The position numbers were made by a program, and so were the translations under genes. Positions 5,767 to 23,724 of a stretch of 24,831 nt of DNA are shown here, piece by piece. Source of the stretch: a virus; IMG/VR virus record IMGVR_UViG_3300015371_000164, positions 1 to 24,831 of that record. One strand, 5' to 3'. The notes under the pieces are model-generated. The model had not been told where the DNA came from. It worked only from the letters and a program-made list of their open reading frames with translations, and made no database searches. The stretch's first letter is position 1, and every line of letters begins with the position of its first letter.

Positions 5767-6176
5767 TGGACCGCCACACGAACCACGACGGTTCGGAGAA
5801 ACCAGAGGACCCCGTCCGCGAGAAGATCCGCGGGCGGTTGCGCGGTGTTCCGAATGAACTCGACTTGTTCGTACCCGTCGAGCGCGTCCCAGGACGCATC
5901 GTCCAGGAGGACGTCGAGCACGATCGACGCGAGTTGATCGACCTCCGCGGTTCCGCGATACGTCGACACGACCGTGACGACGAGATCGACCTGTCGTGCG
6001 CCGTTATCGTCGCCGAACTCGACAACCCACGGGATTTCCTCCCCGCCCAGAACCCACGTATACGGCGCGTCGGTCCCTTGCGGAACGTGCGTGTAGACCT
6101 TCGCCGCGAGCGGCGAGATCGCGCGGAGGACGTCGACCGCGACGTTGACGACCGCGGGAACTTGGGACCCAGGCAT
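5763..6176 (-). CDS. Tail terminator / completion protein (DUF3168-like)
   Basis: The start is ATG 6176 (TAATG overlap with head closure), giving 137 residues. The pattern is VAVDVLRAISPLAAKVYTHV, then GTDAPYTWVLGGE, VDLVVTVVSTYRGTAEVDQL and FLRTVVVRVAVQ. The P-Y-x-x-V and Y-R-G-x-x-E-V/D features are those of DUF3168/gpU-type tail terminators, which cap the tail tube and join it to the head. Position between head closure and the major tail gene agrees. The stop overlaps the next ATG (ATGA). Confidence 0.82.
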   Translation of the reverse strand: MPGSQVPAVVNVAVDVLRAISPLAAKVYTHVPQGTDAPYTWVLGGEEIPWVVEFGDDNGARQVDLVVTVVSTYRGTAEVDQLASIVLDVLLDDASWDALDGYEQVEFIRNTAQPPADLLADGVLWFLRTVVVRVAVQ

Positions 6177-6508
6177 TAGTCCGCCTCGACGCACGTCAAT
6201 TCGAGGACGCGCCGTTTATGGTCCGGGTCGACGATCCCGATGATCTCGAACGTGACCCCGTCGGCGACGACTTCGATCAACTGTTTGGTATCGACGTCCG
6301 GTCGATACGCCATGCTAATCACATGCGTTCCGACCGACTGGATCGCGCCCGCGTTCGACTGTTCGCGACTCGTCAACGGTCGGATCGCCGCGAACGCCGT
6401 CACGTACGACGGTTGCGCCGTCGTGTCGTCCGTCTGTCCCCCCGTGCCATCGTCGACGACCGCGGGCGTGATGATCTTCACGAAATCGCGATATTGTCCC
6501 GCACTCAT
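6176..6508 (-). CDS. Head closure / head-tail joining protein
   Basis: The 110-residue protein MSAGQYRDFVKIITPAVVDD, with GGQTDDTTAQPSYVTAFAAI, RPLTSREQSNAG, HVISMAYRPDV and FEIIGIVDPDHKRRVLELTC, is a clear Phage_H_T_join (PF05521, SPP1 gp16/HK97 gp7-like) stopper. The I-x-x-L-x-x-x-E and Y-R-x-D-V motifs, and a final L-x-L-x-C-x-E strand, are all in place. It plugs the portal-connector complex and forms the tail docking surface. ATG 6508 overlaps the GT2 stop; a much longer frame upstream is a shadow of the cassette genes. Confidence 0.9.
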   Translation of the reverse strand: MSAGQYRDFVKIITPAVVDDGTGGQTDDTTAQPSYVTAFAAIRPLTSREQSNAGAIQSVGTHVISMAYRPDVDTKQLIEVVADGVTFEIIGIVDPDHKRRVLELTCVEAD

Positions 6509-7251
6509 GTTTCCTCGCGGTACGGAAAACTGAGGACGCGCGGTCGCCAGTCGGGACCGCGAGCGGCGACGAGCGTTCGAACGCGAGCGTCTTCGGGTTG
6601 TTTCCGCTTGTATCGAATGGTTGAGGCATCGTCGACGTACTCGTACCGAATCAACGGGTCGGTCAACAAACAGATCGTCGCGTACCGTCCGATCTCCCGC
6701 CGGAACACGCCGTCGGTCCCATAGTGACCGGACAACGCTTCGTCGTACCCGCCGATCTGCCAGAAGAGATCCCGCGCGACGAGGAAACTCGCGGAATGCG
6801 GCGGGATGATCTCGCCCGTGTGTTCCCGTCGGCCGAACGCGTACACGACGTCGGGGTCGTGAACGCTCCAGGCGATCGACTGGAACGTCGCCTCCGGGAC
6901 GACGTGATCCATGTCGGTGAGCAACAACCAGCGGTCCGTCGCATGATGCGCCCCGATGTTCCGCGCCGCGAGCCAGTTCCAGCGAACATCCACGTCGATA
7001 CGAAAGAGCCGCAACCAGTCCGGCCAGCCCATTGACTCGACCACGTCTCGCGCGGGATGCGCGGGCGATCCGTCGTCGACGACGATCACGCGGAGGAACG
7101 CGCGACTCGACGCGGTCCAGTCCGCCCACCGTCCGAGTTGCGCCCGGAAAAAATTCGGGTGTTCGTAGTACGGCACGACGATCGTAATCCGCTTGGGAAC
7201 CGCCGCTCGCGGCGGGCGCACGGTCGCGAGGTCCCGACACCAGAGCGCCAT
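6505..7251 (-). CDS. GT2 family (GT-A fold) glycosyltransferase
   Basis: The 248-residue protein shows a full GT2 pattern. It has RITIVVPYYEHPNFFRAQL, VIVVDDGSPAHPA (nucleotide-binding D59-D60), WLLLTDMDHVVPE with the D-M-D metal motif at 113-115, and GGYDEALSGHYGTDGVFRRE. The last of these is the usual G-G-x-D-E ... D catalytic-loop signature. It has no membrane segment, so it works in the cytoplasm on a soluble acceptor or on a lipid-linked or protein acceptor it can reach. It starts directly after the GT8 gene's TAG and its stop overlaps the head-closure ATG. It is the last gene of the cassette. Confidence 0.92.
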   Translation of the reverse strand: MALWCRDLATVRPPRAAVPKRITIVVPYYEHPNFFRAQLGRWADWTASSRAFLRVIVVDDGSPAHPARDVVESMGWPDWLRLFRIDVDVRWNWLAARNIGAHHATDRWLLLTDMDHVVPEATFQSIAWSVHDPDVVYAFGRREHTGEIIPPHSASFLVARDLFWQIGGYDEALSGHYGTDGVFRREIGRYATICLLTDPLIRYEYVDDASTIRYKRKQPEDARVRTLVAARGPDWRPRVLSFPYREET

Positions 7252-7893
7252 CTATTGCCACCGTTCCGCGAACCAGGGAAACAACTTCGCCGCGTCCGCG
7301 TTTTTCGGGACCTTCGCGAGAATGACTTTCGCGTCGCCGAACGGCGGACCCGCGACCGCGGACAACCGCGGACACCAGGACGACGGAAAGAGATCCGCGG
7401 ACGTGACCTGTTCGCCGATCCAGTCCTGGTCCCCCCAGAGTCGCGCGGCGACTTGCGGCGTCCACTTGTCGAACAACCGATGTTGCGTCGCCGGATTCCA
7501 GACCATGACCGACGAGTTGTACCGATGCACGGTCGCGAGTCCGTCTTTCCCCTCGAACGTCCCCCCCGGTTCGACCAGCGCGAACGACGACTGGACGTCG
7601 ACGATCGGATCGAGCGGCGCAACGACCAGCGAGTCGAGGTCGAGGTACAGCATCCGATCGCTGAACCCGTGTCGGCGGTTGAATAGTTCGACCTTCGCCC
7701 ACCAGCCGAACCCCGCGGGCGTCGCGATCGGGACCGTCTCGATCCCCGCCGGAATCAACCAGGGTTGATCCGTCAGACAGACGAACCGATGCGGGCGGGA
7801 CAGGTGCCGCGCGACCATCCGTTGTAACGTCGCCACGTACGTGACGGTGTACGGGACCCGCCCGCGAACCCAGACACACGCGACGGTTAACAT
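7252..7893 (-). CDS. GT8-like glycosyltransferase, paralogue B
   Basis: A 213-residue protein that parallels the gene at 9211-9921. It starts MLTVACVWVRGR, then ATLQRMVARHLSRPHRFVCL, the D-x-D in YLDLDSLVVAPLD (85-87), and HRYNSSVMVWNPATQ in the acceptor/sugar loop. GDQDWIGEQ and VILAKVPKNAD follow. Here the terminal motif is K-V-P-K-N instead of the S-F-H-G of paralogue A, so the last metal ligand seems to differ. It could use a different donor or be less active. It is coupled to the methyltransferase before it by a 7-base overlap, the same geometry seen at paralogue A. Confidence 0.85.
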   Translation of the reverse strand: MLTVACVWVRGRVPYTVTYVATLQRMVARHLSRPHRFVCLTDQPWLIPAGIETVPIATPAGFGWWAKVELFNRRHGFSDRMLYLDLDSLVVAPLDPIVDVQSSFALVEPGGTFEGKDGLATVHRYNSSVMVWNPATQHRLFDKWTPQVAARLWGDQDWIGEQVTSADLFPSSWCPRLSAVAGPPFGDAKVILAKVPKNADAAKLFPWFAERWQ

Positions 7894-8603
7894 ACGCGCC
7901 TCGCGACCGCGTATTCCCGATGGGACAGGACCGCGATCCGTTCGACGGCGTATCCCCGGAGGTCCTCGACCGCGGCGCGAACGCCGGGGTTCTGGAGATC
8001 ATCGAAGATCGTCAGATCGGCGGTCCGTTGCGAGTGCGTCAGCCACTCGGCTTCCGTTTTGACGGTCGGATAATCATGTTTCCCGTCGACGAACGCGACA
8101 TGGACTCGCGCGTTGTGGAGTCGCAACCAGTCGCGCCCGGTCCCCTGGACCCAGTCGATTTCCCGCGCTTCCGGCCATGGTTGAACGAACTCCGCGAGCG
8201 TCAACCAGGACCCGTCCGTCTCCGCGATGCTGTTCCGTTGGACCCGCGCCGCGGGGTCGATGACATCGACCGAGATCACGCGATGCGGAACCCGCGCGTC
8301 GAGCGCCGCCCACTTGAGACAGAGCGCCGAAAATCCCTTCGCGGTCCCAATATCAAGGATCGTGATCGGCTCCGATGCGGAGAACGGGCGATCGGCACAG
8401 TACCGCCGGACCGCCGCGTACAGGACGCGTCCGTGTTGCCAGTTCGGCGGATGGACCTTGATCGGACACGCCAGTCGCGCCGCTGCCGCTTCCAGGCGGT
8501 CGCGGTCCAGCGCGAACCCCATCCGGTCCTCGAACGCATCGATCGTCGGATAGACGCTCGCGCGTTCGGTCTGGAACGTGAGCGCGTATTGTTGCGGCGT
8601 CAT
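7887..8603 (-). CDS. Class I SAM methyltransferase (Methyltransf_24-like)
   Basis: The 238-residue protein has a helical N-terminus (YALTFQTERASVYPTIDAFE), then motif I TILDIGTAKGFSALCLKWA, motif II VISVDVID, and motif IV-like HVAFVDGKHDYPTVKTEAEW with FDDLQNPGV after it. The VDGKHDYPTVKTE segment is characteristic of the Methyltransf_24 group, often found in sugar-modification clusters. It starts by ATGA overlap after FkbM and overlaps the next gene by 7 bases. Target residue unknown; O- or N-methylation of a sugar is inferred from context. Confidence 0.88.
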   Translation of the reverse strand: MTPQQYALTFQTERASVYPTIDAFEDRMGFALDRDRLEAAAARLACPIKVHPPNWQHGRVLYAAVRRYCADRPFSASEPITILDIGTAKGFSALCLKWAALDARVPHRVISVDVIDPAARVQRNSIAETDGSWLTLAEFVQPWPEAREIDWVQGTGRDWLRLHNARVHVAFVDGKHDYPTVKTEAEWLTHSQRTADLTIFDDLQNPGVRAAVEDLRGYAVERIAVLSHREYAVARRVC

Positions 8604-9214
8604 GGTTGACCCCGCGGGATAAACACTTCGTCCGATCGGAACACATGCGCCCGGTCGTACCCGAGTGCGGCGATAAACGACCGAACCTCGTCCGCCGTCA
8701 CGCCGACCGCGTCCAGGGACTTGTTAATTTCGATCGCGAGGATCGGACGACAGCGGGTGATCGTGTTCACGCCGCCGCGGAGCGCCGCGAGTTCGCCGCC
8801 TTCGAGGTCGAGGTACACGAGGTCGCACACGGGAAACTGAAAGTCGTCGATCCGGAGCGTCGGGATCGTTCCCGCGCCCGCGACATGGGTCAGTCCGCTA
8901 TGCGACGGCCAGTGTGATCCGTCGCGGCGTTCGTGCGACAGGGACACGAACGCGGGTCCGGCCCCGAGTGCGGCCTGATACCGGAACACGTTCCGCTCCG
9001 GAGCGTTCAAGGTGAGGAACAGAAACGATTCCGGATCCGGTTCGAACGTATAGACCGCCTCGAACGCTTGCGCGAGGAACTTCGGCCAGACGCCCAGATG
9101 TCCGCCCGCCTGGACCGCGACCCGCCGCGCCGGGGTCAGCATGACGACCCGATCGAGGACGTCGAGGTCCCGCATCGCATAGCGGAGTCCGACCGGATCG
9201 CCATGGAACTTCAT
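8600..9214 (-). CDS. FkbM-family SAM-dependent methyltransferase
   Basis: The start is ATG 9214 (ATGA overlap with the GT8-like gene), giving 204 residues. The long upstream frame is a shadow. Motif I is VAVQAGGHLGVWPKFLA, followed by YTFEPDPESFLFL (acidic residue at the end of strand 2) and VYLDLEGGELAALRGG, the FkbM signature around the motif IV region. It ends with a typical ILAIEIN strand. FkbM enzymes O-methylate sugars or hydroxyl groups on polyketides and glycans. Between two glycosyltransferases, capping or modifying a glycan hydroxyl is the natural inference. Confidence 0.88.
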   Translation of the reverse strand: MKFHGDPVGLRYAMRDLDVLDRVVMLTPARRVAVQAGGHLGVWPKFLAQAFEAVYTFEPDPESFLFLTLNAPERNVFRYQAALGAGPAFVSLSHERRDGSHWPSHSGLTHVAGAGTIPTLRIDDFQFPVCDLVYLDLEGGELAALRGGVNTITRCRPILAIEINKSLDAVGVTADEVRSFIAALGYDRAHVFRSDEVFIPRGQP

Positions 9215-9921
9215 CGGTAGTTGTCCCGAACCCAGTCGATCGTTTGCGCGGCGTAACTCCAGGGATCGATCCGTCCATGAAACGACACGAGTCGCGCGTC
9301 CGGCGGGAGCTGGTTCCCGTTCGGCGTGATATGGACGCGGTACGAATAGACGCCGTCTTTCCGACCGAACGTCGCTTCGCCGGGTCCGAGCACATGCGAG
9401 ATCCAGCCCTGGTCCGACCCGAACCGCCCCGCGCGGAGTGCGTCGCGCGGCGACGTCCGCGGATTGAACGTCGTCCAGACCTTCGAACGGACGCCCGCCG
9501 ACATCAGGATCAACGACCCGTTGTACCAACTCCGCGGGTCGGTCTCGCCCCACATGACGAACGGTTCGGTCCGATTGAAGATCGGCGCGAGGTCCCCGAC
9601 GACGACCGTGTCCAGGTCGATCGCGACGAACCGGTCCCCCAGGAGATCCCGGATCGCGGGATCGAACAGTTTCAACCGGCGATAACAACTCGGATTCCCG
9701 CCGCCGTGCGGACTCGGAATCGCCGCGTGATCGGTCCAGAGCGGGATCGTCTCGACGCGGTCGAGTCCCGTCGCGTCGTCCGTGATACAGACGAACCGAT
9801 GCGGGGTCCGATAGTGCCGCGCGATCATGCGTTGCAACGTCAACACTTGTTCCGGTCCGAAGACCGACCGATACGTCGCGCCGCCGTACGGTTTCCATTT
9901 GAAACAGACGACCGTTAGCAT
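9211..9921 (-). CDS. GT8-like glycosyltransferase, paralogue A
   Basis: This 236-residue protein begins MLTVVCFKWKPYGG and has TLQRMIARHYRTPHRFVCIT, the catalytic metal-binding D-x-D in VAIDLDTVVVGD (102-104), and YNGSLILMSAG (acceptor/sugar loop) near 133-143. FGSDQGWISHVLG and LVSFHGRIDPW close the domain. This order is that of glycogenin-like GT8 retaining transferases: DxD, then an N/G-S loop, DQ, and an H in the last metal site. It is paralogous to the gene at 7252-7893. The stop overlaps the FkbM gene's start (ATGA). Donor and acceptor are unknown. Confidence 0.85.
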   Translation of the reverse strand: MLTVVCFKWKPYGGATYRSVFGPEQVLTLQRMIARHYRTPHRFVCITDDATGLDRVETIPLWTDHAAIPSPHGGGNPSCYRRLKLFDPAIRDLLGDRFVAIDLDTVVVGDLAPIFNRTEPFVMWGETDPRSWYNGSLILMSAGVRSKVWTTFNPRTSPRDALRAGRFGSDQGWISHVLGPGEATFGRKDGVYSYRVHITPNGNQLPPDARLVSFHGRIDPWSYAAQTIDWVRDNYR

Positions 9922-10532
9922 TTCCGCTCCGGGGTCCGCTCGCGTCCGACATGATTCGCGACGTTATGCGTCACGCGGACGGTCAGTCGATCCGACTCGT
10001 ATCCGATGCGCCGATGATGCGCGACGAGTTCGTCGGTCCGGGTGATCGCGGGTTGTGCGGACCAGTGAATCCGCCCGATCTGCGATCCCGGCCGATACGT
10101 TCGCCACACGACCGGTTGACGTCCCTGTTTATGGAACGTCAGACACGGTTCGCGCCGGTCGCCGTCCTTGTACCGCCCGTACAGCCGCAAGCAATAGACG
10201 CGACGGTCGCTCGCGACGTGCCGGAACAGACTCCACGGGAACGGGCGGACCGTTTCGATGTCGTTTTCGAGAAACAGGATCCAGGACGGGTTCGTCGCCG
10301 CCGCCGCATCAATCAACGCCCGCCGAACCGGGAGCATTCCGAACCGCGTCAGCGTTTTGGCGACGGTGCGGAACCCATACGACGCGACCAGCTCCGCGAC
10401 GCGCGAGTCCGTCGACGCGTCGTCGCCATGGAACAACCGGAACAGACGGAGATCGTTATGTGCCGCGAACGTCGTCAACGTCCGGGCGGTCAACTCGTAC
10501 CGATCACACGTTTGCAAACACAGCGCGATCAC
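9915..10532 (-). CDS. GT-A fold (GT2-like) glycosyltransferase
   Basis: From GTG 10532 the product is 205 residues: VIALCLQTCDRYELTARTL, then FRLFHGDDASTD (the nucleotide-sugar-binding D-D of GT2 enzymes), and WILFLENDIE in the place of the DxD metal site. The middle segment (RVYCLRLYGRYKDGDRREP) is basic and aromatic. It is short for a complete GT2 enzyme (usually 250-300), so it may be a compact soluble catalytic domain. It has no membrane anchor. Its start overlaps the DUF115-like gene by 29 bases and its end overlaps the GT8-like gene by 7. The sugar and acceptor cannot be read from sequence. Confidence 0.8.
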   Translation of the reverse strand: MIALCLQTCDRYELTARTLTTFAAHNDLRLFRLFHGDDASTDSRVAELVASYGFRTVAKTLTRFGMLPVRRALIDAAAATNPSWILFLENDIETVRPFPWSLFRHVASDRRVYCLRLYGRYKDGDRREPCLTFHKQGRQPVVWRTYRPGSQIGRIHWSAQPAITRTDELVAHHRRIGYESDRLTVRVTHNVANHVGRERTPERKC

Positions 10533-11127
10533 GGTCGAGGACCTCCGCAAGCGGACGACACGGAAAACACTCCAGGCGCGTCGAGCGGGAACAGTTGACG
10601 ACCTCGATCCCGGCGGTCGTCAGCGGGTCGACCATGGTTGCGAGGTACTTCCGAAACATTTCGTACGGCGATCGATGTTGAACCGGTTTCGTCTCGAAAA
10701 AATGGTGTCGCCCCTGGACGGGACCCATGTCGTACCCGAGCAACACGATCCGCCCCGCGCCCAGATGGACCGCCAGATTGATCGCCGCCGATCCGGAGTT
10801 GTGACCCGTGCGCAAACAGTCGGGCGTAAAGTCGACGCCGCGTTCGCCCGTGTTTTTGAGCGTGACGACGTTCGGCCAGCGTTGCCGCTCCAGGCGGAAC
10901 ATACTCGCGGACACCTTGTACCGGGGACCCTCGAACGTGCCGCGATAGTTCGACCACCAGGACGCGTCACTCGAATAGAGAACCGCGGCCCATGGCGCAA
11001 GCCGAACCGCGTCGTTGATCGCGATGACGACCCCGAGGTCCCGGACCGCCTCGACGTCCTCGCGGGTCAACGACGGTCCCGGCGCGAGACAGACGACGGT
11101 TCCGCCCTCCGTCAGCCGCGGGATCAT
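10504..11127 (-). CDS. DUF115/GT42-like Rossmann protein, glycan-modification cassette
   Basis: The ATG at 11127 overlaps the connector's TGA (ATGA), giving 207 residues; the longer frame to 11307 is a shadow of the connector gene. The N-terminus has VVCLAPGPSLTREDVEAVRD, then VVIAINDAVRLAPW and VLYSSDASWW. The second half has GAGRIVLLGYDMG followed by HHFF. This nucleotide-binding layout (xGPSL ... IxxNxA ... D ... GYD/GxD ... H) is shared by DUF115/MptE-like proteins and GT42-type sialyltransferases such as Cst-II. The latter transfer a sugar from a CMP-sugar. A glycosyltransferase-like role fits the neighbours; the exact reaction is not clear from sequence. Confidence 0.75.
   Translation of the reverse strand: MIPRLTEGGTVVCLAPGPSLTREDVEAVRDLGVVIAINDAVRLAPWAAVLYSSDASWWSNYRGTFEGPRYKVSASMFRLERQRWPNVVTLKNTGERGVDFTPDCLRTGHNSGSAAINLAVHLGAGRIVLLGYDMGPVQGRHHFFETKPVQHRSPYEMFRKYLATMVDPLTTAGIEVVNCSRSTRLECFPCRPLAEVLDRDRAVFANV
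10541..10546 (-). promoter_or_regulatory. Shine-Dalgarno GGAGGT fixing a GTG start
   Basis: GGAGGT lies 8 bases before GTG 10532. This favours that start over the TTG at 10550, which would place the motif inside the coding region. It is one of the strongest ribosome-binding sites in the window and lies within the upstream gene. Confidence 0.7.
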
Positions 11128-11480
11128 GAGACCGCCGGATCGCGTAACCGATACAACAACGCGGTGACGCGGGTCGGGAGCATCCCGTATTCCGGCGTCG
11201 CGGCGGCGGACTGACTCGCGTCGTCGTCGCCGCGGAACCGATAGAGATCCGCGAACTCCATCAGGACGGCGGCGCGAACCTCGCGCGGCGCGGTGTCCGC
11301 GGTCCATCCCGCGACCGTCGCGGTCCAGGCGGCGTTATCGTCGCGACGTTGCGCCACGTATCCCAGGACGACGCGTTCGGCTTCGTCGAGGATCTGTTGC
11401 AACATCGCATCGTTCGCCGTGATATCGAGCGGGAGCGCGAGTCGTTGTTTCGCGTCACGCAACGTCACCAGGATCGCCAT
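11124..11480 (-). CDS. Head-tail connector protein, gp6-like
   Basis: The 118-residue protein starts MAILVTLRDAKQRLAL and continues ITANDAMLQQILDEAERVVLGYV, then AAVLMEFADLYRFRGDD, and ends TALLYRLRDPAVS. This is the helix pattern of phage_gp6-like (HK97 gp6/SPP1 gp15) adaptors, which form the ring under the portal. The LRDPA ending is typical. The start overlaps the collagen-like stop (TAATG) and the stop overlaps the next start (ATGA). In related phages the next gene is head closure; here seven sugar/methyl-transfer genes intervene. Confidence 0.85.
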   Translation of the reverse strand: MAILVTLRDAKQRLALPLDITANDAMLQQILDEAERVVLGYVAQRRDDNAAWTATVAGWTADTAPREVRAAVLMEFADLYRFRGDDDASQSAAATPEYGMLPTRVTALLYRLRDPAVS

Positions 11481-12259
11481 TAGCTATAGCCTCGACCGCC
11501 GGGATCGCCTTTGGGACCGATCGGTCCCGGCGGGCCTTGAATGCTTTGACCCTCGCGGCCATCCGCGCCGCGCTTGACTGCCAATTGCCACGCTTTGCGA
11601 TCGCCCGTCGGTTCGCCTGGACGCGTCCCGGTCGACACCAGACACAGCCAGAGGGACCCGCCGTAAGTGACGTTCTCTCCGGGTTCATACGTCCGTCCCG
11701 CCTTCCAGACCCCGCAATAGACGAGACCGCGCATCCGTCCGCCCTCGACCGGCGTCCCGTCCTTCCAGGTCCATTCCATCGATCCGTCGTCAGTCGGGAC
11801 GAGTTTCAGATTCCCGACCGTCGCGTCGCGTCCGTCCTTCCCGTTCACGCCGTCCAGCCCGCGGTCGCCGGGGAGTCCGCGATCGCCGGGGACGCCGGGG
11901 AGTCCGTCGCGTCCGTCGCGTCCGGGCGGTCCGGGGTCCCCTTGCGGTCCCCGCTCCCCCGGTGCGCCGTCCTTCGGAATCGGGATCGCCGCCAGTGCCG
12001 CGGCGACGGCGGCGTCGACGACCGTGTCGATCGCGCGGAGCGTCTCGACGACGCTATCGACGCGATCGCGGAGTTCGTCCAACGCGACGGGGTCGACGTC
12101 CCGTCCGGGCGGTCCCGCGGGTCCAGGAGCGCCGTCGACGCCGTCCCGCGGACGCGGTTGTGATTCGAGCGCCGCGATCCGCGACGCGAGTTTGTCCCCG
12201 ACCGCTTTCACGGTCGCGAACACTTCATCGATCAAGGTTTCAAGCGACGTCGTACGCAT
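11480..12259 (-). CDS. Collagen-like protein with C-terminal carbohydrate-binding-like module
   Basis: This 259-residue protein starts with a helical segment (1-35), then a short Gly-X-Y block (40-53), a coiled-coil-like helix (55-93), and a long collagen-type block (96-146: GAPGERGPQGDPGPPGRDGR and on). Residues ~178-228 (VYCGVWKAGRTYEPGENVTY, then GGSLWLCLV) have the aromatic pattern of a ChiA1/CBM5-12-type module. A last Gly-X-Y block closes it (GPPGPIGPKGDPGGRG). Collagen-like phage proteins form trimeric fibres. Encoded between portal and connector, it may be a head or neck fibre. Its start lies in the portal gene, with GGGGGC about 9 bases upstream, and its TAA overlaps the next ATG. 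Confidence 0.9.
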   Translation of the reverse strand: MRTTSLETLIDEVFATVKAVGDKLASRIAALESQPRPRDGVDGAPGPAGPPGRDVDPVALDELRDRVDSVVETLRAIDTVVDAAVAAALAAIPIPKDGAPGERGPQGDPGPPGRDGRDGLPGVPGDRGLPGDRGLDGVNGKDGRDATVGNLKLVPTDDGSMEWTWKDGTPVEGGRMRGLVYCGVWKAGRTYEPGENVTYGGSLWLCLVSTGTRPGEPTGDRKAWQLAVKRGADGREGQSIQGPPGPIGPKGDPGGRGYS

Positions 12260-13971: not shown

Positions 13972-15921
13972 TTACGCGGGACTGCCGACGTTGCCCCAGT
14001 TGACGTCGTCCATATAGACGACCGACCCGGACCGCGCCTTCGCCCAGTTGATAAACCGTTCCGCGCGGAGCGCGATACTGTTCGTCTGGAACATCGACAC
14101 GACCGACGTCGCGGTCCCCGTTACGGAATTCATCGTCGGGGTATCGCTCATTTGGAGCGACGCTTCGCGCGACGCGTCGAGCGTGACCGCGCCGTCGTCC
14201 GCGAGGAACACGTCTTTCGCGTTGACCGCGATCACGAGGTTGCCCGCGCCGCTGGAGTTCGCCGCGTATTGCGTCGGAACCACGGTGATCCCGAGCAACG
14301 TCCCGCCGCCCGCCGAAATGTTCGGGAACGCCGCCTGTCCGAACGCGTTAACCATCAACGACAATTGCATCGCGAGCGTCTCCGGCAGAATCAGAACGAG
14401 ATTCGAGACGTTCTGATTCGCGGCGACGTAGTGGTTGATCAACGTCGCGATGTCGGTCCGGACGTTGTCCGCGGACGTTCCGGCGGAGGTCAACGGGACG
14501 AGTCCGTTCGTCAGACTCGCGGGACTGACGCCGGTAACGGCGGCGTGTGCGGGATCGATCAAGTCGATATCGATCCGTTCGATCAACGCGGCGGCGAGTC
14601 CGTCGCGAACGAGCGTCTCCGCGGACGGGGACGAGAACCGCGCGAGTTCTTCCGTGATGACGGAGATCGCCGCGACTTTCGTAAACCCGAGGGACGTCGC
14701 GTTGAACGCGAAACTCGTCAGCGGTTTAGCCGCGCCCTGTCCGACCCAGTACCCGTTCCCGCCGCTGGTCTGTCCGTTGACCCGGACGTTGAACGGGACC
14801 CGCTGAAACGGGACGCGTCCAATGAGGGACCGCGGGCGAAGGAACTCGATAAATTCCGACGCGAGCGTCGTCGGGTACACGAGCGGATTCGCCCAGACCG
14901 CGTCGGTCGTGGTACCCGCGGGGACGTTGCCTTTCATTTGCAACGCCAGATGCAATTCGCGATCGTCCGGATAATGCGTTTTCGCGAGATCGATCGGCGA
15001 GATCCGATCGAACTCCGATCGCACCTTACAGATCGCGAGTCGCGCGAACCCGATGCCCGGTTCGCGGTTCTGTTTGACCGTGATCACGGGTGCGGCGGTC
15101 CGGGACTCGCGGCCCTGGTCCGGTGTCGCGCCACTCACGGGACGCGCCGCGGCCTTGTTCACGGATTCGAGCGTTTCGAGTCGCGCGAGATGCTTGTCGA
15201 TCTCCGCGACTTCCCGTTCGAGACTGTCGAACGCGTCCTGTGCGTCCGGATCGAGGGTCGATCCCTCGTCTTCCCCGGACATCAGTTCGTTCATTTTCGC
15301 GACTTTGGCTTCCTTTTCCGTGACGAACGCCGCTTTTCGTTCCGTGCTGGTCTTCATCGTGTGGGCCTGGAGCGTGACGCGCACGCGTGACCCGGAATCG
15401 CCCGGAGGGTGTGACCCGCCATCGGGACCAGACGCGGTTCGATGCGCGGAAACTAGGGATTTGATCGTCGCGATCGTCGCGTCCTGGTGTGCCGGGACAC
15501 TGACGAGCGAGAGTTCGAGAATTTCAAAATCGGTGAAGCGAAGTCCGTTCGACTTTTTGATCCGTTCGACGCCGGTCGCCGATGGACGGAATCCAATCGA
15601 GACGCCGCGAATCAGTCCGGCCTTGACCGAACTCCACGCCTCTTCGATCCGTGTGCGGAGCGACGGGGACTCGATCGTCGCCGGATCGGGGAACGACGCC
15701 TGGAACGTGATCGCGTCCCCGACGGTGTTCAGGGACGCGTGTCCGACGGGGAGCGTCGCGTTATGGTGCAACAGGAGCGGAATCGAGGACGCGAACGTCG
15801 CGCCACTAGGAACGACGACGTCGCCGAGACGGTCCGGCGTCAACGTCGACGCGATTCCGGTAATGATGCGCTGGTCGAGATCAAACGACTTGATCGTGAG
15901 ACCCGAATACGCGCGGTTCAT
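13972..15921 (-). CDS. HK97-type prohead protease fused to major capsid protein
   Basis: One uninterrupted 649-codon frame encodes two proteins usually made separately. Residues 1-155 are a peptidase U35/S78 prohead protease: FDLDQRIITGIAST, LLHHN with candidate catalytic His53, GVSIGF with Ser108, and FEILELSLVSVPA with a conserved acidic residue at 136. Residues 156-190 are a Gly/Ser/Pro linker. From MKTSTERKAAF (189) comes a charged, coiled-coil delta/scaffold domain (~190-270), then the HK97-fold capsid protein (~300-649), with YPTTLASEFIEFLRPRS and LRAERFINW landmarks. The protease should cleave the delta domain and itself free during maturation. An ATG at 15357 offers an internal start for capsid alone. 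I chose ATG 15921 because the upstream frame shadows the RHH gene. Confidence 0.95.
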   Translation of the reverse strand: MNRAYSGLTIKSFDLDQRIITGIASTLTPDRLGDVVVPSGATFASSIPLLLHHNATLPVGHASLNTVGDAITFQASFPDPATIESPSLRTRIEEAWSSVKAGLIRGVSIGFRPSATGVERIKKSNGLRFTDFEILELSLVSVPAHQDATIATIKSLVSAHRTASGPDGGSHPPGDSGSRVRVTLQAHTMKTSTERKAAFVTEKEAKVAKMNELMSGEDEGSTLDPDAQDAFDSLEREVAEIDKHLARLETLESVNKAAARPVSGATPDQGRESRTAAPVITVKQNREPGIGFARLAICKVRSEFDRISPIDLAKTHYPDDRELHLALQMKGNVPAGTTTDAVWANPLVYPTTLASEFIEFLRPRSLIGRVPFQRVPFNVRVNGQTSGGNGYWVGQGAAKPLTSFAFNATSLGFTKVAAISVITEELARFSSPSAETLVRDGLAAALIERIDIDLIDPAHAAVTGVSPASLTNGLVPLTSAGTSADNVRTDIATLINHYVAANQNVSNLVLILPETLAMQLSLMVNAFGQAAFPNISAGGGTLLGITVVPTQYAANSSGAGNLVIAVNAKDVFLADDGAVTLDASREASLQMSDTPTMNSVTGTATSVVSMFQTNSIALRAERFINWAKARSGSVVYMDDVNWGNVGSPA

Positions 15922-15925
15922 ATCT

Positions 15926-15953
15926 GGTCCGTCGACGGTAGAACCGGCGGACC
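15926..15953 (-). promoter_or_regulatory. Stem-loop in leader of protease-capsid gene
   Basis: On the coding strand GGTCCG (15953-15948) pairs with CGGACC (15931-15926), enclosing a second short CGGT/ACCG stem. The structure ends only four bases before the ATG at 15921 and contains the only candidate ribosome-binding bases (GACGGACC). It occupies about half of the 58-base gap after the RHH gene. No promoter-like -35/-10 pair is evident in this gap. Confidence 0.45.
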
Positions 15954-15979
15954 GCGAGGACCGTTGTTTGAACAGAAAA

Positions 15980-16189
15980 CTAGTCCGGCGGCGGGTCGTC
16001 CTCCAATTGAAGCAACACGATCCGATTGACCAGTCGCGAGACCGACACGTCCCGCGCGGTTGCCATCCGGACGAGTCGATCGTGAACGGCGGTCGGGACC
16101 CAGGCGGTGATCTGGGAGTGCGGGACGGCGGCGCGGGGACGCCCGCCGACGGATTTCCGGTCGGACGCGACCTCACGGGACGGAGGCAT
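15980..16189 (-). CDS. Small RHH-like (ribbon-helix-helix) protein
   Basis: A 69-residue protein with a basic, disordered N-terminus (VASDRKSVGGRPRAAVPHS) followed by ITAWVPTAVHDRLVRMA and TARDVSVSRLVNRIVLLQLE. This matches the beta-strand/helix/turn/helix plan of Arc/MetJ-type ribbon-helix-helix repressors; the V-S-V-S-R-L-V-N turn is characteristic. RHH proteins bind DNA as dimers, so it could regulate the late operon. The SD-like GAGGT at the end of terL lies 9 bases before the ATG. A DNA-binding protein between TerL and the capsid gene is not standard. Fold assignment is by pattern only. Confidence 0.7.
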   Translation of the reverse strand: MPPSREVASDRKSVGGRPRAAVPHSQITAWVPTAVHDRLVRMATARDVSVSRLVNRIVLLQLEDDPPPD

Positions 16190-18280: not shown

Positions 18281-18559
18281 TTACCTCAACTGTCCGGAAC
18301 CGATGCGCGACCCTCTTCGGACCGGAACGTAATACCGCGGACACTTGCGCGAGACCCAGGGACGGTTCGGGCAGGAACGCGCCAAAACATTTTTAGGCCC
18401 CCCGGTCGGTCGATTGACGCTGACCCCGAGCCTCCGACCGATCGTCGCGTGTGCGCCTTCCCTTGCGGTCCAGGACGGCGTCCTGTCTATCTGGTCATGT
18501 TCCACGGGGAACGACGCTTCGTGCGAACGAGTGCGAATGTTCCCGACTATGCGGTCCAT
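18281..18559 (-). CDS. Small basic protein between methyltransferase and TerS, unknown
   Basis: A 92-residue frame whose ATG lies within the last codons of the methyltransferase gene (13-base overlap) and whose TAA is 6 bases before the TerS start. The TerS ribosome-binding site (GAGGT) sits inside its final codons. The product is basic; residues ~35-55 (AHATIGRRLGVSVNRPTGG) could be a short DNA-binding helix pair, followed by two spaced Cys. The start has no clear Shine-Dalgarno; an internal GTG at residue 19 is an alternative. Codon usage (AGG, ATA) is less typical than its neighbours. I take it as a probable real gene because the gap is otherwise empty. Confidence 0.5.
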   Translation of the reverse strand: MDRIVGNIRTRSHEASFPVEHDQIDRTPSWTAREGAHATIGRRLGVSVNRPTGGPKNVLARSCPNRPWVSRKCPRYYVPVRRGSRIGSGQLR

Positions 18560-19335
18560 ATGTCCGAGAGGTCCGACTGTCCGGGTGAGTCCTCCGCGTA
18601 CAGGGGGAGCGCCGCTTGTGAGAGTCGCCCGATTGCGACATCGCAATACTTCCGCTCCAGGTCGATGCCGATGGCCCGACGTCCGAGTCGCTTCGCCGCA
18701 ACGAGGGTCGTCCCCGATCCCATGAACGGGTCGAGAATCAGATCGCCGGGGTCCGTGAATAACGCCACGAGTTCCAGCATCAACGGTTCAGGCTTCGGAC
18801 ACGGATGTTCCGGGCGTGTCCCACGGTTGACGAACCCGCCTTTGACGACGCCGCATGACCAGAGCGCCGGACGTCCGCCGCCGTTCCAGCGGAGTTTCCG
18901 ATCCGGACGATGCACGATCGTACAGGGTTCGAATCCGACGGACGGGCGGTCCCCGCTGAATTGCGGCATCGGATCCGTTTTGACCCAGGCCCCTGTCCGC
19001 ACGTACCGGAGTCCCGCGCGTTCGAGCGCGATCCGCCAGTCGCCCGTCGATTCCGCATCCGAGAAAACGAGCGACCAGCGATCGACGAGTCGGGCGATCT
19101 CGGTTGCGATGACCGATCGGAGATGGTCGTCCATGACCCCGATCGCGCCGACCGCTAACTGTTCGAGTGCGACACTTCCGCCGCTTTGGTGATTCCGTTG
19201 ATCGGCCCGACGGTAGACGTCCCGCGCGTACGGCGGGTCGGTCAACACATGGTCGACGGCGTCGAGGGACAACAACACGTCCCGACAGTCCCCGCAATAG
19301 ATCGTGATTCCGTCCTGGTCGTAATACCGATCCAT
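18547..19335 (-). CDS. Beta-class site-specific DNA N4/N6-methyltransferase (orphan)
   Basis: This 262-residue protein has the catalytic motif IV TDPPY at 32-36, near the N-terminus, and the SAM-binding motif I DPFMGSGTT at 202-210. That order (IV, target recognition, I) defines the beta class of amino methyltransferases (PF01555). DPPY fits N6-adenine or N4-cytosine methylation of DNA. The variable middle (~residues 40-180) would read the target site. No restriction enzyme gene is adjacent, so it is probably a solitary phage methyltransferase protecting phage DNA or marking it for packaging or timing. Its ATG follows the HNH stop (TAA) directly, with AGGAAAG as ribosome-binding site. Confidence 0.95.
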   Translation of the reverse strand: MDRYYDQDGITIYCGDCRDVLLSLDAVDHVLTDPPYARDVYRRADQRNHQSGGSVALEQLAVGAIGVMDDHLRSVIATEIARLVDRWSLVFSDAESTGDWRIALERAGLRYVRTGAWVKTDPMPQFSGDRPSVGFEPCTIVHRPDRKLRWNGGGRPALWSCGVVKGGFVNRGTRPEHPCPKPEPLMLELVALFTDPGDLILDPFMGSGTTLVAAKRLGRRAIGIDLERKYCDVAIGRLSQAALPLYAEDSPGQSDLSDIWTA

Positions 19336-19683
19336 TTACTTTCCTGTCCGGTCCCGGAGTTCGGATCGTGTTTTGACCCCGTGACAGTGAAAACAAAGCG
19401 CCTGGAGATTCGCTTCGTTGAACATCAGCGTTTCGTCGCCCCGATGCGGGACGATATGGTCGACAACGTCGGTCGTCAGCGTACAGGCGGCGTCCATGGT
19501 CGGATTCGTACAGAACGGGTGCGCCGTCCGGAACCGATCGCGGAGTGCGATCCAGCGCGATCCGGTGTACGCGGTCGGTCCGCGTTTGTATCGCGCGTAC
19601 CACGCCTGGACCGGTTTCGCATGTTCCGGACAACGTCCCGCTTTCACCTTCCGCGAACATCCGGGCGCGAGACAGTACGGCAC
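19336..19683 (-). CDS. HNH endonuclease
   Basis: The start chosen is GTG at 19683, overlapping the upstream TAG by one base (TAGTG). A longer frame to 19719 would run into the structural gene and adds only basic residues. The 115-residue product has an N-terminal CxxxxC...C pair (YCLAPGC, GRCPEH) and a canonical HNH fold: DHIVPHRG (D75, H76, H80), N91 in NEANLQALC, and CFHCH (97-101). HNH proteins beside terminase genes in HK97-type phages assist cos or packaging cleavage by TerL. This one is separated from TerS by a methyltransferase and a small ORF, so a packaging role is likely but not certain; a homing-type nuclease is the alternative. Confidence 0.9.
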   Translation of the reverse strand: MPYCLAPGCSRKVKAGRCPEHAKPVQAWYARYKRGPTAYTGSRWIALRDRFRTAHPFCTNPTMDAACTLTTDVVDHIVPHRGDETLMFNEANLQALCFHCHGVKTRSELRDRTGK

Positions 19684-20009
19684 TATCCGCCGCCGCCCCA
19701 ACCGGGAACGATGTCCCAATGATCCGGTTCGCGTTTGTTCGGGTAGTACCCGACGGTGTTCCCGCTATCGGTGATCTTGAACCGTACGCGGTAGTGACCG
19801 ATCGGAAGTCGATCGATCGCCGTGACGGACACCGTTCCCGCCGCGCGATCGAGCCAGTCGGCGTCCGGAACCGGCGCGACCGGCGTTCCCGTCTCCGTCC
19901 ACACGTCGAGCGTCACCGTTAACGCCGTACCGTTACTGGCCTGTCCGTTGTCCAGTAACTTGAACGTTTGCGGTTCGGTCGTGCCGAACGGGATTTCGTA
20001 CGCTTCCAT
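19683..20009 (-). CDS. Small beta-rich phage structural-type protein
   Basis: A 108-residue protein beginning MEAYEIPFGTTEPQTFKLLD, followed by an immunoglobulin-like strand pattern (TVTLDVWTETGT ... GTVSVTAIDRLPIGHYRVRFKI ... GNTVGYYPNK) and a Trp/Gly tail. The layout resembles the N-terminal BppU-like domain found in phage baseplate and fibre-attachment proteins, where a short beta sandwich docks a receptor-binding protein. That match is by pattern only. It has the best ribosome-binding site in this part (AGGGAGG) and shares its last base with the GTG start of the HNH gene. Confidence 0.65.
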   Translation of the reverse strand: MEAYEIPFGTTEPQTFKLLDNGQASNGTALTVTLDVWTETGTPVAPVPDADWLDRAAGTVSVTAIDRLPIGHYRVRFKITDSGNTVGYYPNKREPDHWDIVPGWGGGG

Positions 20010-20455: not shown

Positions 20456-20473
20456 GATCTGACCCGTCAGATC
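20456..20473 (-). other. 8-bp perfect inverted repeat at end of LamG gene
   Basis: GATCTGAC and GTCAGATC are separated by two bases. In RNA this would be a 7-bp stem with a CGGG tetraloop. It spans the LamG gene's TGA and lies 13 bases upstream of the next ATG; a GAGGGG ribosome-binding site sits between them. No U-tract follows, so it is not a classical terminator. An mRNA-stabilising or coupling-breaking hairpin is the simplest reading. Confidence 0.6.
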
Positions 20474-23400
20474 GCGCGAGTGGAACGCGTCGGCGAGACC
20501 GCGCCCGTTGATCGCGTCGGAGTCACGCGTCCGACCGTTCTGGTCGGCGTGAGAGCGACGATCGTCGTGTTGTGAATATCGACCTCGACTCCGCCATGTA
20601 GACGGAGGTTGACCGGCGTTCCCGTCACGAGGATTTCGCCGGTCGACGCGTCCAGGACGTAGCCGTACACCAGTCCGGCGTCGGTCCCGAGGACGACGAC
20701 CGATCCGGGGTCGAGACTGAACGTCCGCGCGAGTTTCACGATCGCGGGCGTCCCCGTGAGCGCGACGGATCCCGGATCGACATGGAACACGCGCGACCAG
20801 GGGAACGCCGCGGCGGTTCCGGACACGACGACCGATCCTGATGTGGCAGTCAAGATCCGCCCGTGAGCCAGTCCCGCCGCGACGCCGGACACCAGGACCG
20901 ATCCCGGTGTTGCCAGGGTGACGCGTGCGACCTTTGGGAGCGCCGCGGTTCCGGCGATCGTGACGAACCCCGCATCGGCCGCGATCGCGCGTGCGGATTT
21001 CACCGTCGCCGCCGTCCCGGACACCAGGACCGATCCCGGCGACGCAACCGTCCGTCGACTGACCTTCGGGACGGCGGCGGTCCCAGTAACCAACACGGAA
21101 CCCGTCGCGGCCTGAATTAGTCGCGCCGTTTTCGCTACCGCCGCCGTCCCGGTCAACGTGATCGCGCCGGGGGATGCCGTGAGAACCAGTCCGCCGATCG
21201 TCCATTTCGGCGTTACCGTGTACGTGTCGAGCGGTACGCCCGCGACGTACACGCGGAACTCGTAAAAATCCGTATTGACCGCGGGCGCTTGCGCCGCGAG
21301 CGACCATTCGAGTTCGGTGTATCCGTTGTTCCCGAGGTCGATCGCGTCCACGCCGTTCTCGTCGTCCCACATGCGGCCCGTCGTGAACGCGCCGCCGGTA
21401 AATTCGCGGTACGACGTCGCGATCTCCGTCGCCGTCAACGCACGGTCGTACACGCGGAGGTCGTCGACCGCGCCGGTGAGGAAAAATCCCCCGCCCGCAT
21501 ACGCGCCGACGGCCTGGAGATGGAGATCGTCATTCGACGCGAGCGTTTGCGTCGTCCCGATCTGGACGCCGTTTTTGTAGAACGTGACGGACGTCCCGGA
21601 TCGCACGATCGAGAACCGCATCCACGTTTCGTCCGGACTCAGTCCGCCGTGTGCGACGGTGACGAAATTCGTTCCGCCGGTCGAATAGTAAATGTTCGTC
21701 TGGTCGATGTACGGCGCGTATCCCGCGGTCGACGTATTCCCCACGACGACGGCATCCGACCCAGGCCCGCCCGCCCACATGACGCCGACCGACACGGTAT
21801 GCGTCCGATAGATCGTCGTCCGCCCCGCCGCGAACAGAGCGGCCATAAAGTCGCCGCCGTAGTCGCCATAATCGCCCGACGCAAACGCGACCGCGGATCC
21901 GAGTGCGCCGGTCCGCCAAGTGAAATTCCCAGACGGCGCCCCCGAGACAAACCGGACCAACTGTTGTCCGGTGAGGACGCCGCCCGTCACGGCGGCGGCG
22001 TTCCCGGTGTTTTCGTCGAACGTGACCCGGAATACGTAGTCGGTCGGGAGCGGCGTCAATTGCGCGGTCGTCGCTTCGCCGCCGGACGCCACGTTCGAGG
22101 ACGGCGCGATGTAGAGCGGCCACACGACCGACGTCGCCCGGATGCGGAGGACGAACCCCGGACCGCGCGTGTTCGTCGTCGTGCCGCCCGCGGTCGCCGT
22201 GATCGTCGGGGCGGTCGACCCCGATCCCGCGGTCGCGAGTACGTTCGCCATCCATCCGCCGAGTTGATTCCCGGATGCGGAGTCGAATTCGAAAATTTCA
22301 TTGACCGCGCCGAACGTCGTTCCGCTTTGCGTGATCGCTTCCGCGGAAAACTGGGACGGCGTCGATACGTCGGTCGGAATCGCTTGTCCGAAGACGAGAA
22401 AGTCCCCGGCCTGGATCGTCACGCCCGCGTCGGTCGTGAGATTGATATTCCCCGCCGCGGTGTCCTTCCCGACACTCGCGGAGTACGACAACGTGTTGAT
22501 ATCGGCACAATCCACGGAGAACATCCGGGCTTGCGTAATGTTGTTGTCCGTCAGAGTGAATGTGACCGATCCCGTTTCGGCGCCTGTCACCGTGTCTTTC
22601 GTAAAGACGAACAGGTTCATGTTCCCGACGTCCGCGCCGGTCGTGGATCCGTAGCCTCCGGTATCGCCGTCGTTCGCGCCGGTCTTCGAACACTGGAGCG
22701 TCCAGCCGGACGGCGTCGAGCAACCGCCGCCGTTCGCGGTCGTCGGCTTTTGCATGAGGACGACGACGAGTGCGGAGTTCGCGTTGTAGCCGGTCGGATA
22801 CGCGGGCGCGATCGACGTCGTCGTCGACGCGAGGTTTGTACTCAGGTTGCCGAGCGTGAGGGTACCGGGCGTCGTTTGTGCGCCGACGGGAACCGCGGTG
22901 TACGCGCCCGCGCCATTCTTCCGCGCCAGCAACGACGGGACCAGGGACGGCGGATCGCCCGCGGCGGCGATCTGGAATCGGAGTCGGAGGTTCGCCCCGA
23001 GCGGGAACGTCGTATCGGCGTCGAGTGCGGCCGAATACGCCGCGCCGGTTTCGCTCCCGTTGTCCGCGCGGAATCGCGTATGCGTTTGCGTGATCGGTGC
23101 AACGGTCGTGATCTTTAGAAGGATCGTGACCGAGTACACATTGTTCGACGACCCGCCGTTCGCATACGCGCCGGGGTCCTCACTCCCCGCCGCCGTGAGC
23201 GTCTTCGAACAGATCGTACACTTCTGCCCCGTCACGCCGAGCGACCGCCGCGTATACCCGGTCGACGGCGTCGAGCCGCCGGTTCCCGATCCGCCGTACG
23301 TAAACCCAATGCCGACGGATTCGTCGTCGACGCCGGTCGCCGTCGCCGCGGGCGGGTTGGCATTCGTTGCCGCCGCCGTTACGACCGTTTGTGCGGACGC

Positions 23401-23724
23401 GTCGATCGTGAACTGTTTATTGATCGCCGGTCCGACCGAGACGTATTCCCACTCGGATCCCGTGAACGTGCCGGACGCGGTCCAGGACAGGTTCGGCGTC
23501 CCGCTCCGCGTTTGCGTGAACACGAGGAAATCGCCGTTCGATCCCGTGCCGCGGAATCGTTGCGTCCAGCCCGCGCCGGGCGTAACGGTCCCGACCCCGC
23601 TCGCGGCGGGTCCCGTCAGACAGAGGATTTGGAAGTCGCGATCGGCCGCGGCGGCGGGTTCAGTGAGTCCGAGACTCGCGCCCGATCCCGTGCCGCGTGT
23701 ACTGGTCCGCCACGTTCCGGCCAT
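20467..23724 (-). CDS. Large LamG-domain virion protein with C-terminal 22-residue repeats
   Basis: This 1085-residue protein is rich in Gly, Thr, Ser and Ala, as expected of an extended, beta-rich phage appendage. Residues ~10-210 and ~290-550 look like two related beta-sandwich units, each with a GDFLVF/GDFLVFG-type strand. A linker between them contains TRFRADNGSETGA, a motif I have seen in phage surface proteins. Residues ~560-775 form a LamG/concanavalin-like domain: FYKNGVQIG, then a DDLRVYDRALTATEI closing motif. Residues 852-1049 are nine 22-residue repeats, and the end carries three PTRS/PTRT motifs. LamG domains bind carbohydrate or protein ligands, so a host-surface adhesin or head decoration is likely. 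Its place upstream of terminase, away from the tail module, is unusual. The start has TTGAGGGACC just ahead of ATG. Confidence 0.75.
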   Translation of the reverse strand: MAGTWRTSTRGTGSGASLGLTEPAAAADRDFQILCLTGPAASGVGTVTPGAGWTQRFRGTGSNGDFLVFTQTRSGTPNLSWTASGTFTGSEWEYVSVGPAINKQFTIDASAQTVVTAAATNANPPAATATGVDDESVGIGFTYGGSGTGGSTPSTGYTRRSLGVTGQKCTICSKTLTAAGSEDPGAYANGGSSNNVYSVTILLKITTVAPITQTHTRFRADNGSETGAAYSAALDADTTFPLGANLRLRFQIAAAGDPPSLVPSLLARKNGAGAYTAVPVGAQTTPGTLTLGNLSTNLASTTTSIAPAYPTGYNANSALVVVLMQKPTTANGGGCSTPSGWTLQCSKTGANDGDTGGYGSTTGADVGNMNLFVFTKDTVTGAETGSVTFTLTDNNITQARMFSVDCADINTLSYSASVGKDTAAGNINLTTDAGVTIQAGDFLVFGQAIPTDVSTPSQFSAEAITQSGTTFGAVNEIFEFDSASGNQLGGWMANVLATAGSGSTAPTITATAGGTTTNTRGPGFVLRIRATSVVWPLYIAPSSNVASGGEATTAQLTPLPTDYVFRVTFDENTGNAAAVTGGVLTGQQLVRFVSGAPSGNFTWRTGALGSAVAFASGDYGDYGGDFMAALFAAGRTTIYRTHTVSVGVMWAGGPGSDAVVVGNTSTAGYAPYIDQTNIYYSTGGTNFVTVAHGGLSPDETWMRFSIVRSGTSVTFYKNGVQIGTTQTLASNDDLHLQAVGAYAGGGFFLTGAVDDLRVYDRALTATEIATSYREFTGGAFTTGRMWDDENGVDAIDLGNNGYTELEWSLAAQAPAVNTDFYEFRVYVAGVPLDTYTVTPKWTIGGLVLTASPGAITLTGTAAVAKTARLIQAATGSVLVTGTAAVPKVSRRTVASPGSVLVSGTAATVKSARAIAADAGFVTIAGTAALPKVARVTLATPGSVLVSGVAAGLAHGRILTATSGSVVVSGTAAAFPWSRVFHVDPGSVALTGTPAIVKLARTFSLDPGSVVVLGTDAGLVYGYVLDASTGEILVTGTPVNLRLHGGVEVDIHNTTIVALTPTRTVGRVTPTRSTGAVSPTRSTRAI
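20578..21171 (-). repeat. Nine tandem 22-residue (66-bp) coding repeats
   Basis: Inside the LamG gene, residues 852-1049 divide exactly into nine units of 22 residues with the consensus PGSVxVSGTAAxxKxARxxxAx. Clear copies are PGSVLVSGTAATVKSARAIA, PGSVLVSGVAAGLAHGRILT and PGSVALTGTPAIVKLARTFS. Units near the centre are closest to consensus and the two ends diverge. The phase is constant, so copy-number change would keep the frame. The pattern predicts short beta hairpins stacked in a stalk or solenoid. Confidence 0.85.

Follow-up and report, generated by a model that had tools for sequence, protein, structure and literature searches.

In the mycobacteriophages Che8, Corndog, and Myrna, phage-encoded glycosyltransferases (GTs) glycosylate the capsid and the tail tube, with the glycans located at the C termini (Freeman 2023, as cited in PMC12363180 and PMC12619734); as far as we have found, virion glycosylation has been shown only in mycobacteriophages. 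In Maravista, which belongs to the F1 cluster as does Che8, the GT genes are found toward the 3′ genome end (PMC11256854). Here, we describe a cassette of seven sugar- and methyl-transfer genes (genes 1 to 7) at the head-tail junction of the virus recorded as IMGVR_UViG_3300015371_000164 in IMG/VR; the window that was analyzed is this whole record of 24,831 bases, which is probably a fragment of a genome. We consider it probable that the seven genes form a soluble, late-expressed assembly line for a glycan carried by one of the phage's own virion proteins, and this view is based on gene content, intact motifs, operon coupling, a fixed address, exchange between phages, and purifying selection in relatives. 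As in the mycobacteriophages, phage-encoded GTs would act on structural proteins, an activity demonstrated there and inferred here. The window differs in that its GTs are at the head-tail junction, in a larger, methyl-rich set, and no mycobacteriophage occurs among the tblastn matches of genes 4, 6, and 7, the genes whose matches were all listed.

A comparably placed set is found in Tetraselmis viridis virus S20, in which nine genes (TVGG_00041 to TVGG_00049) occupy the slot of the window cassette, directly before the head-closure gene Hc1. S20 encodes homologues of the window ST (the sialyltransferase/DUF115-like product of gene 1; 31% identity), GT-A (33%), GT8 (50%), FkbM (30%), and GT2 (39%) proteins, and its portal and capsid are 24% and 26% identical to those of the window. 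It differs in having two ST genes, GT-D, Methyltransf_23, and another gene order. The original prediction, which was made from the sequence of the window, regarded a complete set at this position as unfamiliar; S20 and the smaller sets of phages D3, PAJU2, and Psp6 contradict this. Our literature search, in which few subscription journals were covered, found no paper on head-tail cassettes, that of S20 included, although the S20 genes are annotated.

An ST, a 275-aa protein of no recognized family, and a Methyltransf_23-type methyltransferase lie within the head-tail module of D3 (orf7, orf12-13), PAJU2 (ORF010-012), and Psp6 (00048-00050). PAJU2 resembles the window in its fused capsid-portal-connector order, but all three phages have only two or three glycan-type genes and no GT8 or GT2 chain, and in D3 the ST is apart from the other two genes. 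The combination of gene 1, a no-family protein of ~275 to 297 aa, and a methyltransferase recurs in PAJU2, Psp6, and the Klebsiella jumbo phage Eowyn (the set of L162, L164, L170, and L175) and is found both inside and outside the head module. PAJU2 ORF010, the gene 1 homologue (L164:5001-5570), is labeled a structural protein in its GenBank record; if the label rests on virion analysis, the gene 1 enzyme itself may be packaged.

In the pmgO-pmgP-ppp-pmgQ set of P1, pmgO and pmgP are ST homologues and pmgQ is a GT8 homologue; unlike the window, P1 has a phosphatase and no recognized methyltransferase in this set, which adjoins tail genes rather than the head-tail junction. The three pmg genes are nonessential (PMC10695390), which is compatible with a decoration role. 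Caulobacter phage CcrColossus carries an ST, a sugar transferase, a methyltransferase, and a GT9 (gp126 to gp131) in its late region, but it is a jumbo phage, and the set is located behind tail genes and before lysis genes. Gtr-type serotype conversion depends on a membrane flippase and membrane glycosyltransferases, whereas none of the seven cassette proteins contains a transmembrane-grade segment.

Organization of the window cassette

The late genes of the window lie on the minus strand, in the order small terminase, large terminase, protease-capsid fusion, portal, collagen-like, connector, cassette, head closure, tail terminator, major tail protein, and tape measure (the last assigned from length and position). 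The cassette extends from 11127 to 6505 and, as predicted, consists of seven same-strand genes between the gp6-like connector and the head-closure gene; all frames are present and intact, and adjacent frames abut or overlap by 4 to 29 nt. Four-nucleotide ATGA overlaps are found at 9211-9214 and 8600-8603 and also at both flanks (11124-11127 and 6505-6508), which bears out the proposed coupling to the structural genes. The open reading frame (ORF) list placed the starts of genes 2 and 4 too far upstream; the likelier starts are GTG 10532, with GGAGG just upstream, and ATG 9214, respectively (Table 1).

Table 1. Cassette genes, flanking genes, and candidate acceptor in the window
Feature	Position	Strand	Supporting matches
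gp6-like head-tail connector (upstream flank)	11124..11480	-	Phage_connect_1 PF05135, 22.6 bits (cut-off 21.2); PHROG 40, E 1.1e-7
Gene 1, sialyltransferase/DUF115-like (ST)	10504..11127	-	PHROG 4603 "alpha-2,3-sialyltransferase", E 4.9e-43 over residues 15-198
Gene 2, GT-A-fold glycosyltransferase, GTG start	9915..10532	-	AlphaFold2 pLDDT 90; Foldseek 1.5e-7 to GnT-I; invariant E-x-D motif
Gene 3, GT8-like glycosyltransferase	9211..9921	-	PHROG 1962, E 1e-15; DLD motif; glycogenin profile match
Gene 4, FkbM-family methyltransferase	8600..9214	-	PF05050, E 1.6e-16, 61.3 bits (cut-off 22.7); solved FkbM 2py6, 1.7e-9
Gene 5, class I methyltransferase (Methyltransf_24)	7887..8603	-	PF13578, E 3.9e-7, 31.3 bits (cut-off 26.3)
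Gene 6, GT8-like glycosyltransferase	7252..7893	-	PHROG 1962, E 2.6e-17; DLD motif
Gene 7, GT2 glycosyltransferase	6505..7251	-	PF00535, E 1.1e-9, 38.8 bits (cut-off 23.3)
Head-closure Hc1/Phage_HCP (downstream flank)	6176..6508	-	PF05521, E 8.5e-20
Collagen-like protein, candidate acceptor	11480..12259	-	PF01391, E 1.6e-12; weak CBM5/12-like PF02839, 5.3e-5, below cut-off

The catalytic motifs, which the original prediction had described as intact, are invariant in homologues that are mostly 30 to 60% identical. Residues G17, S19, G131, D133, and H142 of gene 1 are unchanged across 65 homologues, the DLD motif of the GT8-like genes (3 and 6) is kept in 29 of 29 sequences, and DIGTAKG of gene 5 and the VDD and DxDH motifs of gene 7 are invariant across 5 and 10 homologues, respectively. 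The ratio of nonsynonymous to synonymous substitution rates of the cassette genes in close pairs is 0.06 to 0.56, mostly somewhat higher than that of the portal in the same pairs and well below one. Together, these values and the invariant motifs are typical of functional enzymes under selection, not of decaying cargo.

Of the predicted family assignments, GT8, FkbM, Methyltransf_24, and the GT2 of gene 7 stood. Gene 2 matched no sequence family and is assigned to GT-A by its predicted fold, with Foldseek matches that include GnT-I, POMGnT1, polypeptide GalNAc-transferases, and collagen galactosyltransferase. The window proteins of genes 3 and 6 have no direct PF01501 match, and the link to GT8 structures comes from a profile of the two genes combined (glycogenin, 4e-7; Skp1 galactosyltransferase, 6e-8). 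Gene 1 scores 24.5 bits against PF01973 (DUF115), below the curated cut-off of 34.6, and its DUF115 assignment was not upheld at that threshold. The nearest glycosyltransferase to its AlphaFold2 model (pLDDT 95) by fold is ST3Gal-I (probability 0.82, TM 0.45, E 0.06), and its profile matches CstII with an E value of 0.1 to 0.3, no better than chance ferritin matches; neither similarity is significant, and the structural identification of gene 1 as a sialyltransferase was dropped. "Sialyltransferase" is used here as a name, not as an activity. CMP-sialate (CMP-sugar) synthetase, sought as a clue to the donor, was found in 0 of 33 records, so host nucleotide sugars are presumably used.

Several other features of the window were observed. 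A single frame (13972-16095) ahead of the portal gene encodes the prohead protease (S78) and the major capsid protein as one fusion, an arrangement also seen in Pseudomonas phage PAJU2. An N6/N4 DNA methylase gene (18547-19335) and an HNH endonuclease gene lie next to each other (18547-19719 for the pair), immediately upstream of the small terminase gene. Upstream of the terminase genes, a 1,085-aa protein (20467-23724) has a series of resembling repeats of ~27 aa each (..SVLVSGTAA..) close to its C terminus and looks like a fibre or surface protein.

Recurrence of the locus and exchange between phages

We collected 159 distinct IMG/VR loci from one portal scan and one gene 1 scan and analyzed them with iterated hidden Markov models; the counts describe gene 1- or portal-seeded loci and not frequencies among phages generally. 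In 43 loci, both flanks are visible and there is no cassette gene, and nearly all of these loci have essentially adjacent connector and head-closure genes, as the original prediction had assumed; the seven genes of the window thus represent an insertion there. Cassettes are located between the connector and head closure in 19 loci and in a further 3 in which additional genes follow head closure, between the collagen-like gene and the connector in 12, and just after head closure in 6 (the window, its own copy, and phage records included). Structural (late head or tail) genes are present in 69 of the 80 loci found with gene 1 alone. In 60 of these 69, under 1 kb separates the start of gene 1 from the closest structural gene upstream of it (connector, 30; collagen-like, 24; capsid, 6), and gene 1 is nearly always the first gene of the cassette; in three of the remaining 11 loci (L091, L145, and L152), Pfam models for head closure or the portal gave a match.

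The grouping is not a matter of chance: the full seven-gene set is present in the same order in L085, with homologues 44 to 65% identical, and near-complete sets occur in L092, where all seven families are represented, and in L119, where FkbM alone is missing. Relatives form a length series, from gene 1 alone (L087, L095) through gene 1 plus GT8 (L083, L084) to all seven genes (window, L085). The window cassette is an unusually complete example of a recurrent locus, not a unique one. One genome scan aimed at host assignment yielded only four contigs of metagenome-assembled genomes, three of them shorter than 10 kb, and no clear host.

Family-matched genes in the interval are mostly of glycan type (GT2, Glyco_trans_1_2, TOD1_MUCI70, GT9, GT-D, many methyltransferases including Methyltransf_24/23/12, TylF, PIG-L deacetylase, hexapeptide transferase, and radical SAM/B12). 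The connector region might instead be a general cargo slot for many kinds of moron genes, among which glycan enzymes are merely frequent. Many interval ORFs have no family match, and L003 and L005 contain ~5 kb of non-glycan, no-family genes in the slot between the collagen-like gene and the connector, both of which would suit such a slot. However, the family-matched cargo of ST-seeded loci is almost all glycan chemistry, the ST is nearly always the first gene, and the cassette genes are under purifying selection with intact motifs; we consider a general cargo slot unlikely. The 5-kb insert of L005 (2464-7014) and L003, which are portal relatives (60% identity), comprises five genes, one of 892 aa, and none of the five has a significant Pfam family.

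Between some phages whose portals are ~23% identical, the cassette genes are ~40 to 55% identical. Gene 1 has a median identity near 42% where the portal is <30% identical to that of the window, compared with 46% where the portal is at least 45% identical, and GT8a is 50 to 55% identical in two phages with portals <30% identical, in which it is still in the head module. In L094 (portal, 23%), a roughly 10-kb cassette lies between the capsid gene and a borderline connector-like gene; this cassette encodes a radical SAM/SPASM protein that is apparently interrupted by an intein (L094:11364-13658; Intein_splicing, 1.1e-7; PT-HINT, 6e-7). The cassette genes are best read as horizontally exchanged and then reinserted at the same site, a reading drawn from identities and not from a reconciled gene tree. 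A comparison of ST with portal distance as a test of vertical inheritance (rho 0.09) was uninformative; TerL and HCP are also unlinked to portal distance within ST-bearing phages, and the comparison at portal identities <30% was therefore preferred. The prediction had named common, unrelated cargo that moves freely between sites as the finding that would speak against it. Half of this applies, in that the cassette is common and passes from phage to phage; within HK97-type siphophages, however, it keeps coming back to the head-tail module.

Retention of this address also bears on the possibility that the enzymes modify a host surface glycan (lipopolysaccharide [LPS] core or capsule precursor), late in infection or in lysogens, against superinfection or the loss of progeny on debris; the position of the cassette would then give late expression only. 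GT8, GT9, and FkbM are common in LPS and capsule loci, D3, PAJU2, and P1 are temperate, the P1 homologues are dispensable, and in the jumbo phages XacN1 and Eowyn the head module is not where their versions are located, all in keeping with a host target. However, the window cassette has no membrane-anchored enzyme or flippase, the head-tail insertion is kept across phages at ~23% portal identity, and LPS-altering phage genes are usually lysogenic-conversion genes that are expressed from the prophage and located outside the structural operon. We regard a host glycan as a possible but distinctly less probable target.

Candidate acceptors and proposed role of the cassette

The collagen-like protein was examined as an acceptor, and its repeats are longer in ST-bearing phages (median of 43 versus 6 GXY triplets). 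The portal tree, however, contains just five changes of the ST trait, and the independent pairs, split 1.5 to 1.0, show no association; because the link fails this phylogenetic control, it was dropped as evidence. Ser/Thr-rich C-terminal tails on capsid or tail proteins, considered as an acceptor mark, showed no convincing difference: the C-terminal 40 residues of the capsid contain 13.2% Ser plus Thr with the ST and 12.4% without it (P = 0.75), and the major tail protein contains 16.5% with and 13.6% without the cassette (P = 0.036, uncorrected and with no phylogenetic control).

Phage DNA is another conceivable acceptor, if the cassette glycosylates modified bases against restriction. Some phage GTs hypermodify DNA (Pyle 2024, as cited in PMC12619734), and the window has a DNA methylase gene; however, TET/JBP was found in 0 of 33 related records, in a search whose control gave no signal, and just one of 24 records had a match of thymidylate synthase type, so no source of hydroxylated bases was seen in these records, which are often fragments. 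In addition, the cassette is beside head-tail genes, not replication genes. We regard DNA as the least probable of the targets considered here.

Decoration of a virion protein is favored because the cassette is embedded in the late operon and translationally coupled to structural genes, because the structural-gene address is kept while the family-matched cargo is mostly glycan chemistry, because gene 1 and GT8a stay similar in the head module while portals diverge, and because transmembrane-grade segments are lacking and the mycobacteriophages provide a precedent. From these observations, we infer a virion-protein acceptor, an order of steps, the sugars, and a purpose. The substrate would most likely be a freshly synthesized virion protein, modified in the cytoplasm. 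Gene 1, constant and placed first, probably encodes the enzyme that adds the core sugar or caps it; extension of the glycan would fall to the GT-A, GT8, and GT2 enzymes and its O-methylation to the FkbM and Methyltransf_24 enzymes. The sets of extenders and methyltransferases vary by phage and could give each a different virion coat, which may serve surface variation, shielding, or receptor interaction. Two parallels are suggestive by analogy: the Maf proteins, also members of PF01973, attach nonulosonic acids to flagellin without an intermediate, and a streptococcal adhesin bears an O-glycan whose extension is due to GT-D enzymes.

Several observations weigh against decoration of the virion. 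LPS and further glycans of the host are likewise among the substrates of the GT8, GT9, and FkbM families, and small versions of the cassette in the jumbo phages XacN1 (ORF375-373) and Eowyn (gp005-003) lie outside a recognizable head-tail module. The gene 1 model has no significant PDB match, including none to any known glycosyltransferase. The interval ORFs without a family and the non-glycan genes in the same slot of L005 count here as well, as do the failed collagen link and the absence of Ser/Thr enrichment in the capsid. The original prediction of a methylated glycan on the virion or the host is thus partly supported, by intact glycan enzymes that are coupled to structural genes at a fixed address, but not by these last two acceptor comparisons. 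On balance, the virion-glycan reading is plausible and is strengthened by the patterns of position and exchange.

A broader proposal, which we offer tentatively and hold to be possible rather than probable, is that HK97-type phages share a "virion glycotype" locus, in which a constant ST-like enzyme and rapidly exchanged sugar- and methyl-transfer genes at the head-tail junction give a lineage-specific methylated glycan on the neck or collagen-like head fibre. Such a locus would be comparable to the variable O-antigen or flagellin glycosylation islands of bacteria.

The locus suggests that virion glycosylation may be widespread in HK97-type phages, and its recognizable genetic address, together with the marker gene PHROG 4603, allows such loci to be found. 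The cultured carriers D3, PAJU2, Tetraselmis virus S20, and P1 make the hypothesis testable. If true, it would provide a function for the unassigned genes pmgO, pmgP, and pmgQ of P1 and orf7 of D3. It is also relevant to phage adsorption, to recognition by antibodies, and to how "moron" glycosyltransferases of phages are interpreted.

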